Positions 2,539 through 31,607 of a DNA stretch of 45,540 nucleotides are shown here, piece after piece. Origin of the DNA: Promethearchaeota archaeon Loki_b32 (lineage in GTDB: Archaea; Asgardarchaeota; Lokiarchaeia; Sigyniarchaeales; SOKP01); assembly GCA_005223125.1 (NCBI GenBank), contig NJBH01000032.1, positions 1-45,540 on the forward strand, written 5' to 3'. The translations under genes were made by a program, and so were the position numbers. Each line of letters opens with the position of its first letter. Positions within the stretch are counted from its first letter, which is position 1. The notes beneath the pieces are model-generated. The model made no database searches, was not told the DNA's origin, and saw only the letters and a list, made by a program, of their open reading frames with translations.

Positions 2539-3069
2539 ATGTCTGAACAAATTTTCACTTTTAAAACGATAGTAATTGGTCCCGCGGCTGTAGGAAAGTC
2601 CAGTCTTATACGTAGATTTGTAGAAAATCAGTTCTCTTTACATTACAAGTTCACAATTGGTGTAGACTTTATGAGTAAGGTTGTAGATTATGAAATAGGG
2701 AAATCTGCTAAACTTACATTATGGGATATAGGAGGACAAGAACGTTTTAAAGTGCTACGTAGAAGTTTTTACGAAGGGACTAATGGGGCGATTGTTGTAT
2801 TTGACCTTTCAAGAGCAGGAACATTTTCGAAAATGAAGGAGTGGCTTTCAGATGTGCGTCAAGCAATTGAGATAGATTTTCCTGCTTTAATTGTAGGGAA
2901 CAAATCTGATTTAATTCCAGAAATTGGTATAGTAATTGATCGAAATGAAATTGAACAATATTCTAAAAAGGAAAACACCATCTATATTGAAACATCAGCC
3001 AAAACAGGCGATAATGTAGAAAAAGCCTTTCTTGAACTTACTCAAAGAATGGTACAAAGATGCATATAA
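2539..3069 (+). CDS. Ras/Rab-like small GTPase (first of three)
   Basis: 176 residues with all five G motifs: G1 GPAAVGKSS (14-22), switch I Thr39 in FTIGVDF, G3 WDIGGQE (62-68), G4 NKSD (121-124) and G5 ETSAK (151-155). Spacing matches Rab/Ras proteins, but G3 carries GGQ, as in Arf/Sar and many Asgard GTPases, instead of AGQ. Gln67 sits at the catalytic Gln position. The C-terminus ends in RCI; one Cys lies next to the end, with no CaaX or double-Cys prenylation motif. It should bind and hydrolyse GTP and act as a molecular switch; effectors are unknown. It is closest by eye to the next gene (3274), suggesting tandem duplication. Confidence 0.92.
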   Translation: MSEQIFTFKTIVIGPAAVGKSSLIRRFVENQFSLHYKFTIGVDFMSKVVDYEIGKSAKLTLWDIGGQERFKVLRRSFYEGTNGAIVVFDLSRAGTFSKMKEWLSDVRQAIEIDFPALIVGNKSDLIPEIGIVIDRNEIEQYSKKENTIYIETSAKTGDNVEKAFLELTQRMVQRCI

Positions 3070-3273
3070 TTAACTGGCAAGATTAATTTAATTTTTTATT
3101 TAAATTTCTTCTATTTTTTGTGATCTTTTAAAAAATGATTTAGATTATTTAATTTAACGAATTATTAAGAACGTTCGAAGGACTAACAAATAAATCAATT
3201 TGATTATCGAATAACATGAATATAAATTAAAAAAGTTCTATTCAATTTTTATAAAACAAAATTTTACTCATTT

Positions 3274-3798
3274 ATGGCAGAATATTCATTTAAGATAATC
3301 ATTATTGGTCCTGCTGCAGTGGGAAAATCCAGCTTAATTCGACGATTTGTAGATAATAAATTCTCCTTACAATACAAATTTACCATAGGCGTTGATTTCA
3401 TGGCTAAAATTATCGAGTATGAGCCGAATAAATCCGCTAGACTTATGCTTTGGGATATAGGCGGGCAAGATCGATTTAAAATGTTACGTCGTAATTTTTT
3501 TGATGGAGCTAATGGAGCACTAGTAGTATTTGACCTTTCCCGAGCCCAAACCTTTTCTAAAATGAAAGAATGGATCTCAGATATGCATAAATTAATGAAA
3601 ATAGAAATACCTTTTGTCATCTTAGGAAACAAAGTCGATCTACTTACTGAAATAGGTGAAGTAATAGATCGAAATGAGCCCCTTCAATACTCTGAGAAAA
3701 ATGACAGTGTTTATATTGAATCCTCAGCTAAAACTGGTAATAATGTCGAAAAAGCCTTTGTAGAACTTACCCAAAGAATTGTACAAAAATTCTCCTAA
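3274..3798 (+). CDS. Ras/Rab-like small GTPase (second of three)
   Basis: 174 residues and very similar to the upstream GTPase through the whole G domain. Motifs: G1 GPAAVGKSS from residue 12, switch I FTIGVDF, G3 WDIGGQD, G4 NKVD and G5 ESSAK. The protein starts almost at the first strand and stops right after the last helix, so it is a bare G domain with no tail or lipidation Cys (it ends in QKFS). The 204-base AT-rich gap before it suggests its own promoter. Nearly identical switch regions in genes one and two imply shared regulators or effectors; this is inference. Confidence 0.92.
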   Translation: MAEYSFKIIIIGPAAVGKSSLIRRFVDNKFSLQYKFTIGVDFMAKIIEYEPNKSARLMLWDIGGQDRFKMLRRNFFDGANGALVVFDLSRAQTFSKMKEWISDMHKLMKIEIPFVILGNKVDLLTEIGEVIDRNEPLQYSEKNDSVYIESSAKTGNNVEKAFVELTQRIVQKFS

Positions 3799-3921
3799 TT
3801 TTGCCGATATTCTAATAATATTACAACATAAAACGACTTTTTTAATCTTTTTAAATTCACCGATTTAGAAAATTTTTAAATATAAAATTTAGATTATTTA
3901 ATAAAACAAATTTTATGCATT

Positions 3922-4458
3922 ATGTCACTTTATGTATTTAAGGTCATAATAATAGGACCTGGAGCTGTCGGAAAGACTTCTCTCTTATACAGATTTGTAG
4001 AAAACAAGTTCTCTTTTCGATATAAGATGACTATAGGTGCGGATTTCCTTTCAAAAACTATTCAAGATCATCCTAAAGCAGGAACAACAGTAAAATTGCA
4101 AATCTGGGATATTGGGGGTCAAGATCGATATAAATTCTTAAGATCCAGCTTTTTTGATGGTGCTAACGGTGCCTTTATTGTTTTTGATCTATCACGTTGG
4201 CATACTTTTGAAGAAATTGAAGACTGGTTATCAGATTTGCATGAATTTGCAGGTGAAAACATCCCTTTTGCATTGATTGGAAATAAGGTTGACTTAATTG
4301 ACAAAAAGGATGAACTCTATGAACGAGAAAGTGCTCAAGTATTTGCTAAAAAAGAACAAACTTATTATATCGAAACCTCCGCAAAAACAGGGGAAAAAGT
4401 GGAAGATGCTTTCTTGAATTTAACGGAAAGAATGTTAAAAAACGTAAGTTATAAATAA
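3922..4458 (+). CDS. Ras/Rab-like small GTPase (third of three)
   Basis: 178 residues, more diverged than the two upstream paralogues. G1 is GPGAVGKTS from residue 12, switch I is MTIGADF, G3 is WDIGGQD, G4 is NKVD and G5 ETSAK. An extra loop before G3 (HPKAGTTVKLQ) lengthens the beta-2/beta-3 region compared with its neighbours. The C-terminus ends in Lys with no Cys, so no prenylation is predicted. It converges with the SNF2 ATPase gene, whose stop is only nine bases away on the other strand. With the other two it forms a small GTPase cluster typical of Asgard genomes. Confidence 0.92.
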   Translation: MSLYVFKVIIIGPGAVGKTSLLYRFVENKFSFRYKMTIGADFLSKTIQDHPKAGTTVKLQIWDIGGQDRYKFLRSSFFDGANGAFIVFDLSRWHTFEEIEDWLSDLHEFAGENIPFALIGNKVDLIDKKDELYERESAQVFAKKEQTYYIETSAKTGEKVEDAFLNLTERMLKNVSYK

Positions 4459-16842: not shown

Positions 16843-18819
16843 TTGTCTGAAAAACAGACCAATAAAAATGAAAACGAAGATCAACCAAGAATAGGTGTGT
16901 TCGTGTGCCACTGAGGTATTAATATCGCAGGAATCTTAGATATTCCAAAGATAGTCGAAGAGATAGATAAATTAGACAATGTTTGGGCTTATCCATACAT
17001 CTCTCTATGAACTGAAGGTGGATCCACTGAAATCAAAGAGAAACATGAAGAATTTAAGTTTGATAGAGTTGTTGTAGCAGCTTGTACTCCAAAAACACAT
17101 CAGCCTGTTTTCCATGCTATTTTAACAGAGATGGGCTTACCACCACGTTATTTGGAGTTCGTAAACATTCGCGAGCATTGTTCATTTGTACATCAAGCTC
17201 CGGAGGTGCGTGAAAGAGCAACACTGAAAGCCATAGAATTAATCAAAGCGGGGATTTCTAGATCAAGACTATTAGAGGATGTACCAACAAAAACAGTACC
17301 AGTAAAACCAGCGGCTTTAGTTGTTGGTGGAGGAATCGCAGGATTATCAGCAGCAATCGATTTAGGAGATGCGGGTTATAAAGTATATTTAGTGGAGAAG
17401 AATACGACGATTGGTGGTCGTATGTCCCAACTCGATAGAACTTTCCCAACAGACGATTGTTCGATATGAATATTGGGACCAAAAATGCTTGAAGCCAATC
17501 GCCATCCAAACGTAGAAATATTAACCTACAGTGAAGTCATAGAAATAGATGGGTACATCGGTAACTTTAAAGCTAAATTAAGAAGAAAAGCACGCTTTGT
17601 TGATGAGACAAAATGTATTGGTTGTGGTTCTTGTACAGATATATGTCCTGTTTACACGAGTAATTACTTTGATGAACATTTATCTGCGAGAAAAGCTATA
17701 GATATTGCTTTTGCCCAAGCAGTTCCGGCAGTTTCACAACTTAACCGAGACGTTTGTGTTGAATGTTTTGCGTGTGTTGATGCATGTGAACAAGAAGCCA
17801 TAGATTTCAGCCAACGAGATAAAATTATAGAACTTGATATTGGAACGATAATAGTTGCTACTGGTTGGGACCTCTATAAAGGTGATGATTATGGTTATGG
17901 TATTTATGATAACGTAATCAACCAAATAGAATTAGAGAGGATCCTAGCACCTAATGGACCAACTTATGGTCATTTGAAGCGTCCCTCTGACGGTAAACGC
18001 CCTACTAAAGTATTATTTATTAATTGCGTTGGATCCAGAGATATAAATAAAAATGCTCATTGCAGTGTTATCTGTTGTAATCTTTCTCTAAAAAACTCTA
18101 AATTAATCAAGTCAGAATACCCTGATTCGCAAATTGTTTGTTGTTATATTGATATGCGATGTGCTGGGAAAGATTACGAAGAATATTATAGAAGATCTCG
18201 AGATGCGGGAATTATTTTTGTTAAGGGATTGGTCGGAAAAATAGAACAAGATCCGTTAACGAAAAATCTGAAAGTACAATTTGAACCAGTTGGTACTGAT
18301 AGTATAGTTTCTATGGAATTTCACATGGTGGTTACTTCACCAGCATCATTACCATCTCAAGGAACTAACGAAATTGCCAGAGTTCTGAAAATGGAAAAAA
18401 GCCCTGATGGGTTCTTAAAAGAATATCATGCACGACTCGATCCAATTAGTACAAAAGTCCCGGGAATTTATATCTGTGGTTCTGCCCAAGGTCAAAAAGA
18501 GATTGATAAGACAGTAAGCCAAGCTAGAGGAGCAGCATCAGTAGCAGGCATTCCAATGGGAAAAGGTGAATATACTATGGAATTAATCCGAGCTAAACCC
18601 TCAGATGAACGTTGTGCTAAATGCTATAGATGTATAGAGGCCTGTCCATATACAGCAATTTCAGTAAATCCTGAAGGAAATCTTGTTGTTGACCTCATAA
18701 ATTGTCGAGGTTGTGGAGCTTGTGCATCATTATGTCCTTCAAAAGCAATTGAATTAACATACTTTAGAGATGACCAGTATATGGCATTAATAGATGAATT
18801 ATTACCAATTGAGGAATAA
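16843..18819 (+). CDS. hdrA: Selenocysteine-containing HdrA, flavin electron-bifurcating subunit
   Basis: 658 residues when three in-frame TGA codons are read as selenocysteine (Sec24 at 16912, Sec56 at 17008, Sec209 at 17467). All three replace Cys that are conserved in HdrA: CHUG for CHCG, LUTEGG in the second N-terminal cluster site, and CSIUILGPKM for CSxCILTPKM in the FAD region. The FAD motif VVGGGIAGLS follows residue 160. An inserted ferredoxin has CIGCGSCTDICP and CVECFACVDAC, and the C-terminus has CAKCYRCIEACP and CRGCGACASLCP. HdrA splits electron pairs between ferredoxin and a thiol/disulfide or hydride partner. TTG start with GGTGA six bases before it; mvhD starts 16 bases after the stop, so the pair share a transcript and probably one SECIS. 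Confidence 0.9.
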
Positions 18820-18835: not shown

Positions 18836-19294
18836 ATGGCAGAAGATAATGATTTAAAAATTATTGTATATGCTTGTTGGAAATGAGGGTATGGTTCAGC
18901 GGATATGGCAGGTACAATTCGTGCACAATACCCGGATTCCATTAGAAATGTCTTAGTACCTTGCGCGGGACGTGTAGGATGTGATCTAATAATGCGGGCA
19001 TTTGGTAGAGGTGCTGATGGCGTAGTAATTAATGCTTGATATCCTAAAGAGTGTGATTATGAAACTGGAAATTACTATGCATATCGTCAAGTCGAATACG
19101 TTAAGGAAATATTAAAAGTTATTGGCATGAGTCCAGAAAGAATCAAAATGATATATTGCACAGCAGCTGAGGGTCAAAAATTTCAAAAGGAAGCTATAGA
19201 AATCGATAAAACTATACGTAAATTGGGACCTAGTCCCTTACGTACAAAAGGCGGCACACCTAAAGAAAAAGCTAAAGCGAAAGCAAAGGCTTAA
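18836..19294 (+). CDS. mvhD: Selenocysteine-containing MvhD/VhuD-like [2Fe-2S] subunit
   Basis: 152 residues with two in-frame TGA codons: Sec17 (18884) in CWKUGYGSAD, where other MvhD have CNWCSYGGAD, and Sec68 (19037) in NAUYPKECDY, where others have GCHPGDCHY. The remaining ligands CAGR and EC are conserved, so the two Sec residues take Cys positions of the [2Fe-2S] site. MvhD carries electrons from a hydrogenase or formate dehydrogenase to HdrA. GAGGT ten bases before the ATG supports the start. The C-terminus ends in a Lys/Ala-rich tail (KAKAKAKA). Directly downstream is the SECIS-like hairpin, then the FrhB/FdhB-like gene, which suggests the electron source here is not a hydrogenase encoded next door. 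Confidence 0.9.
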
Positions 19295-19300
19295 AAAATA

Positions 19301-19373
19301 ATGTGTTTACTGATGAAACTGAGTTAAAAAAATGAGAACTCAGTTGAGGAAATGGGAGCACCATATAACACAT
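19301..19373 (+). promoter_or_regulatory. SECIS element with a eukaryote-like AUGA/GA core
   Basis: Located six bases after the mvhD stop. Outer stem: ATGTGTT (19301-19307) pairs perfectly with AACACAT (19367-19373). Inner stem: AACTGAGTT (19317-19325) pairs with AACTCAGTT (19337-19345), nine pairs, capped by an A-rich 11-base loop (19326-19336). Just below the inner stem, ATGA (19313-19316) faces GAG (19346-19348), which gives A-G and G-A tandem non-Watson-Crick pairs as in the quartet of eukaryotic SECIS. The 3' side of the internal loop is long (about 18 bases against 5). Published work on Lokiarchaeota describes SECIS with eukaryotic features; this one fits. It must serve mvhD and probably hdrA. 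Confidence 0.75.
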
Positions 19374-19483
19374 AAAAAAAATTTTCAGATGGTTTAATCA
19401 AAATTATTGTAAAATATTTCAAAAAATTTGGGAAATTAAGAAAAAAATAAATAAGTTAAATATAATAATTGAGTTGGAATTAC

Positions 19484-31389: not shown

Positions 31390-31607
31390 TGATAAATTTT
31401 TAAGAACATAAAATCAATAGTGGATTTTTAAATCCAAAAGAAAAAATCAAACTAAATTCTTTTTTTTTTATTTTCTTATTTTAAATTGTTAATTATAATC
31501 TGTAATAATAAAAGCTAAAGATTCGCAACTTTGTTAAAAATTCGCTTAGATTTATATTTTTAAAATTTCTAAGATCATTATAACTTATATTAATTTACGT
31601 GGTATTA

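Follow-up and report, generated by a model that had tools for sequence, protein, structure and literature searches.

A probable SECIS element with a conserved third helix behind the lokiarchaeal hdrA and mvhD genes, and candidate selenoprotein genes found with a three-helix model

In Promethearchaeota archaeon Loki_b32, positions 1 to 45,540 of the contig NJBH01000032.1 (called the window below) carry two neighbouring genes with in-frame UGA codons, hdrA and mvhD, which are separated by 16 bases and are followed, six bases behind the mvhD stop codon, by a structured element. The features of this locus, all on the plus strand, are the following.

16843-18819, plus strand: hdrA with three in-frame UGAs (16912, 17008, 17467); NF040770 HdrA2, 1e-219; the TTG start at 16843 is uncertain
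18836-19294, plus strand: mvhD/vhuD (FlpD family) selenoprotein gene, 152 codons plus stop, two UGAs; NF045873 VhuD, 8e-41; PF02662
18884-18886, plus strand: UGA, Sec codon 17 of mvhD
19037-19039, plus strand: UGA, Sec codon 68 of mvhD
19301-19373, plus strand: probable SECIS element, whole, with three helices (fold, homologues, covariation, covariance model)
19301-19307, plus strand: helix 1 (lower stem), 5' strand ATGTGTT, 7 bp with 19367-19373
19313-19316, plus strand: ATGA (AUGA in the RNA), 5' side of the putative kink-turn/SECIS core
19317-19325, plus strand: helix 2 (upper stem), 5' strand AACTGAGTT, 9 bp without mismatch
19326-19336, plus strand: apical loop AAAAAAATGAG, 11 nt, starting with seven A's
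19337-19345, plus strand: helix 2, 3' strand AACTCAGTT, complement of AACTGAGTT, with covariation
19346-19347, plus strand: GA, 3' side of the SECIS core
19352-19364, plus strand: helix 3 (second arm), ATGG (19352-19355) and CCAT (19361-19364) around the loop GAGCA
19367-19373, plus strand: helix 1, 3' strand AACACAT, pairing with 19301-19307

The three hdrA UGAs are codons 24, 56 and 209, and at both mvhD UGA positions all eight aligned Cys paralogs from this genome have cysteine. The genome (4.13 Mb in 71 contigs) encodes a SelB homologue, which at 242.5 bits, its neighbours included, narrowly exceeds the family cut-off, and contains selD genes with UGA. A whole-genome search with the tRNA-Sec model RF01852 yielded no match over the cut-off, the matches being tRNA-Gly, tRNA-Arg, tRNA-Leu and a tRNA-Gly-like gene with an insert. 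The published Loki tRNA-Sec contains an intron, and the tRNA-Sec gene may sit in the missing part of the genome. The tRNA-Gly-like gene with an insert (L192:1501-1601; C29:46414-46514, minus strand) was missed by ARAGORN and matches the tRNA-Sec model weakly. Elsewhere in the window, three consecutive Ras/Rab-like small GTPase genes were recognised from ORF sequence alone at 2539-4458 on the plus strand.

The original prediction, made from the letters of this locus, described two perfect stems of 7 and 9 bp flanking an internal loop with ATGA opposite GAG, an A-rich apical loop and a six-base gap to the mvhD stop codon (TAA, 19292-19294), and read the whole as a SECIS-like hairpin. The coordinates and the pairing all proved to be as described, and the SECIS reading gained support; the upstream gene is a selenoprotein gene by homology, with UGAs in place of the Cys of its paralogs. 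As a drawing of the structure it was correct for both stems and the core and incomplete elsewhere, a third conserved helix having been overlooked. The region 19290-19385 folds with -17.7 kcal/mol, compared to -8.4 +/- 2.4 for 200 dinucleotide shuffles (z = -3.8; 0/200 as good), and in its minimum-energy fold the internal loop's 3' strand forms helix 3, which makes the element a three-way junction.

To see how far this structure is shared, mvhD homologues were collected from 79 genomes of the order Lokiarchaeales and the regions downstream were read. Among the orthologs, 32 distinct elements were aligned by MAFFT without structure (alignment A1). In this alignment 9 pairs are double-changed with pairing kept, compared to 4.1 +/- 1.2 in shuffles (0/500 shuffles equal), and pairing amounts to about 95-100% in all three helices (94.6% of cells for helix 1, 100% for helix 3), with seven of the nine helix 2 pairs changing on both sides. 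RNAalifold predicted the same three helices on the orthologs unasked. The covariation and conservation which the original prediction had proposed as its check are thus present in related genomes, the double-changed pairs being joined by a constant core in the wider set described next.

For this wider set we used a descriptor consisting of the lower stem, [A/G]TGA, an upper stem whose first pair was left free, [G/A]A, a second hairpin and the lower stem. At a score of at least 20 it found elements in 66/91 mvhD-type loci compared to 0/455 dinucleotide-shuffled regions; as the descriptor was written after some of these sequences had been seen, the shuffles are a control and the hit rate is not. 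All mvhD elements have AUGA on the 5' side (66/66) and GA opposite (66/66), where the descriptor also allowed GTGA and AA. The same architecture occurs 3' of selD (22 loci) and of mvhA/vhuU (20-21 loci), with AA instead of GA in 14/20 mvhA elements, and AAA at or beside the 5' end of the apical loop, which the score rewards and does not require, is present in 140/140 elements from five gene groups. No element was found downstream of seven FlpD paralogs without in-frame UGA, and the eighth paralog had only a chance-like match of 18.7. On the plus strand of the window 19301-19373 is the sole site scoring at least 20 (25.9), compared to one weaker, chance-like match of 20.8 at 31592 on the minus strand. 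At L183, L186 and L187, from genomes of family f19, the SECIS seems to start within the mvhD coding region, with the stop codon inside the second arm.

Helix 3 is nearly invariant in the ortholog alignment, so that a broader set of elements was required to judge it. Over 114 elements from mvhD, selD and mvhA loci it has 62 distinct stem sequences (e.g. ATGG/CCAT, ACCTT/AGGGT, AAACC/GGTTT, GCCC/GGGC, CTATCC/GGATAG). Because close orthologs hardly vary there, its covariation rests on the comparison between groups in a structure-fitted alignment (A5), together with the shuffle control for the element as a whole and with the segment counts that follow; pair counts on A5 are illustrative only, as the descriptor demands helix 3. 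When the arm was not required, a hairpin of at least 4 bp was present in 40/50 distinct mvhD segments compared to 14.7 expected from shuffles, and in 14/15 mvhA segments compared to 8.2 expected; the 9/17 selD segments compared to 7.4 expected are by themselves not evidence. The helix 3 loop contains GC or GU in 139/140 elements, which the descriptor does not require, and this conservation of the loop argues for a contact role. Most mvhD loci with UGA from other Asgard families show the arm on visual inspection, its loop frequently being longer (...AAGCG...). A reading of helix 3 as a terminator hairpin was ruled out by the absence of a U-tract directly 3' of it, and a T-loop (UGNRA) is inconsistent with its loop, the fifth base of which varies.

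Lokiarchaeota have been known to contain eukaryote-like SECIS elements since 2016 (Mariotti et al., as cited in PMC9499178 and PMC11227280); AUGA_GA type I elements common to hdrA and frhD/mvhD across Asgards were described by Huang et al. (2024; PMC11227280). A eukaryote-like SECIS of Lokiarchaeota common to hdrA and mvhD is therefore already published and not new, and the element at 19301-19373 is one of the Asgard eSECIS-like type I elements, which share its AUGA_GA core, an upper stem of 7-15 bp, an A-rich apical loop and a place in the 3' UTR. Its mismatch-free 9-bp upper stem and 11-nt loop fit the type I limits (7-15 bp with at most 2 mismatches; apical loop of 8-20 nt), ATGA at 19313-19316 opposite GA at 19346-19347 fits the core 5'-GA_[G/A]A-3' preceded by AU, and, as in type I, it lies in the 3' UTR behind a selenoprotein gene, here mvhD. 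The parts of the Huang 2024 models are a core, an upper stem with its apical loop, an internal loop and a lower stem, with no helix on the 3' side of the internal loop, and a review describes the Loki element with one apical loop (PMC9499178). What is new here, set apart from those models and that description, is the conserved third helix, which the figures of Mariotti et al. (2016) may show.

Compared to eukaryotic type I SECIS elements, with which it shares the AUGA/GA core, the unpaired apical A's, two stems with an internal loop and the 3' UTR location, the Loki element differs by its third helix and by the lack of an Rfam SECIS match, and archaea have no known SBP2, of which no homologue has been reported in them (PMC11227280, PMC9723677). 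The original prediction had proposed standard models as a check; these failed, since Infernal with Rfam's own models misses the element although the element is real, with no SECIS family at E <= 10 for 19280-19400 and none at the gathering threshold across the window. Methanococcal (euryarchaeal) SECIS elements likewise sit in the 3' UTR of the same selenoprotein families and have a kink-turn-like core, whereas the Loki element is without the GAA_A bulge and GC clamp and a lokiarchaeal SECIS is not functional in Methanococcus maripaludis (PMC11881835). This failure fits a lineage-specific partner and is no proof of one.

A first covariance model, built with Infernal from the close orthologs only (R1), recovered near relatives and, at E <= 1, found none of the searched paralog elements, and a broader model (R2) was therefore built from 43 diverse elements in a common frame with N padding. 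Over the whole genome it gave 12 matches at E < 0.2. The window element scored 40.4 bits (E 8e-7 for a genome of 4.1 Mb), the site itself being among the training rows, while the element of an mvhD paralog that had been kept out of training was matched at E 2.6e-5. Seven of the 12 matches lie directly behind known selenoprotein genes, namely the window mvhD, the mvhD paralog, an hdrA, three Prx-like genes and a vhuU, and each of the genes other than the window mvhD likewise has an in-frame UGA upstream of the match. The Prx-like genes, which were absent from training, are L206, L211 and L213 (C3:11692, C31:2744, C3:12432), and one of them has two Sec (WUTYU). A match on C67, inside an ABC-transporter region, is false. 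At L212 (C22:33574-33643, minus strand) the model matched a three-helix SECIS-like element whose upstream gene was not assigned. The remaining three matches follow frames that contain UGA and belong to no known family; we list these frames as candidates.

L216:1501-1935 (C24:226531-226965), minus strand: candidate protein of about 145 aa with tandem UGA-UGA; homologues L217-L245 and L284-L293
L246 (C70:14425-14667): candidate family of about 80 residues with a single membrane span, most members with GG-Sec-x-Cys; homologues L247-L265
L266 (C11:35368-35676) and L267-L269: candidate small membrane protein with an acidic linker and Cys-Phe-Sec or Ile-Phe-Sec, in four genomes

The tandem-UGA family is represented in 57/78 genomes of the order, and nearly every homologue has two in-frame UGAs. 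In an alignment of 33 members the first UGA is kept in 33 and the second in 32, and the pair is preceded by Cys in 30/33 (GCUU; the others HADUU or AUGUU); distant members, at 22-30% identity, keep CUU. Conservation extends beyond both UGAs with a coding pattern (codon positions 0.25/0.17/0.45 after them and 0.31/0.19/0.51 before), and the three-helix element is found downstream in 24/30 loci compared to 0/300 shuffles. Searches against Pfam, NCBIfam and PDB sequences gave no relative and no thioredoxin-like Pfam profile matched; an AlphaFold2 model of moderate quality (pLDDT 79) had no significant match among PDB structures (best E 0.11), with weak ubiquitin-like matches only. For consecutive Sec residues we found one precedent, an algal PDI_e with GUGUU (PMC7539508), which resembles the GCUU and AUGUU of the tandem-UGA family in this respect and to which no sequence relation was found. 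At L285:1949-2981 (C32:56448-57480) two tandem-UGA genes are adjacent with one SECIS after the second, which is likely shared across the cistrons. The GG-Sec-x-Cys family has the element near the stop codon in 17 loci, and in the Cys-Phe-Sec / Ile-Phe-Sec candidate the SECIS and the stop codon overlap. The survey of Huang et al. was aimed at homologues of families reported before, seven of which it lists for Asgards (PMC11227280), and such new genes would have been missed by a search restricted in this way.

We consider it very probable that the element at 19301-19373 is the SECIS belonging to the transcription unit of hdrA and mvhD, and that it is a three-way-junction RNA of the 3' UTR through which the UGAs would be read as selenocysteine. 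Its structure, its covariation, its conserved place behind UGA-containing genes and the equivalence of UGA and Cys were obtained by comparison, from which we infer that the RNA folds in the cell and serves Sec insertion. Helix 1 would close the element. By analogy with eukaryotic SECIS elements, the AUGA/GA pairs (sheared G.A/A.G) at the foot of helix 2 would make a kink-turn for recognition by a protein, and the apical A's would touch the Sec machinery. The element would recruit an archaeal SelB/EFsec-Sec-tRNA complex, probably via a putative kink-turn-binding protein, and the two mvhD and three hdrA UGAs would be decoded as selenocysteine through it, with helix 3 most likely shaping the junction or acting as a second contact point.

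An ordinary 3'-UTR hairpin or terminator without decoding role, with the mvhD UGAs decoded otherwise, would suit the short, AT-rich 3' UTR and the A-tract after the hairpin, but the conserved AUGA/GA and AAA lie outside the paired parts, elements stand behind UGA-containing genes and are absent behind Cys paralogs, and no U-tract lies directly 3' of 19301-19373; this we regard as very improbable. A SECIS of the euryarchaeal type (GAA_A kink-turn-like bulge with GC clamp), which the archaeal host and the protein families shared with Methanococcales might have led one to expect, is hardly conceivable at this site, where 19281-19420 lacks any GAA_A element carrying at least two G/C pairs and such elements occur in 1/91 related loci compared to 1/455 shuffles. 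More weight is due to the question of whether the element serves mvhD only, hdrA using another, unrecognised element or having its UGAs served from elsewhere. The distance from UGA to element is 264 to 2389 nt over both genes, and the 1834-2389 nt of the hdrA UGAs, which moreover lie in another cistron, exceed the about 70-1,500 nt published for archaea (PMC9499178). However, a descriptor scan of the window found no second SECIS-like element in the vicinity of hdrA or between hdrA and mvhD, so that a single SECIS probably serves all five UGAs of the two cistrons; the hdrA-mvhD pair is conserved, Huang et al. (2024) concluded sharing in Asgards too, and the neighbouring tandem-UGA genes at L285, where only the second is followed by a SECIS, offer a parallel. 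We thus hold service to mvhD alone to be improbable, and hdrA would use the SECIS of mvhD across the cistron boundary.

Within the SECIS reading it can be argued that the SECIS proper is the published two-stem element and that helix 3 is a separate nested hairpin concerned with mRNA stability, processing or an L7Ae-type feedback, as eukaryotic SECIS elements and the Huang 2024 Asgard models do without it and the hairpin is short and in single segments often not significant alone. Against this, helix 3 keeps a nearly fixed position, after the core GA and before the 3' strand of helix 1, in mvhD, selD, mvhA/vhuU, Prx-like and the new Sec genes, its loop keeps GC or GU almost throughout, and the arm recurs in other Asgard families. 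A separate hairpin therefore seems rather unlikely to us, and sequence comparison points to helix 3 as part of the functional element, presumably as a junction scaffold or as a contact for a protein or the ribosome. It is likely, with some reserve, that Asgard SECIS elements are three-way-junction RNAs with a previously undescribed, strongly conserved second arm, and that a model containing this arm exposes selenoprotein families missed by homology surveys. We rate this model-based search as a more interesting result than the feature of the original prediction, which is of a known kind with a conserved third helix added.

Lokiarchaeal SECIS elements are the main evidence on the archaeal origin of eukaryotic selenocysteine decoding. 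If the second arm is conserved, the archaeal ancestor was probably a two-armed RNA, of which eukaryotes lost one arm. With the arm, the search for the archaeal SECIS-binding factor, still missing, would have a definite starting point, and the arm is possibly one reason for the failure of the Loki element in Methanococcus. It also lets SECIS elements be found genome-wide without prior knowledge of the protein, as in the three candidate selenoproteins from one genome, and among these the widespread family with two adjacent Sec codons would test the number of UGAs in a row that an archaeal SECIS is able to recode.
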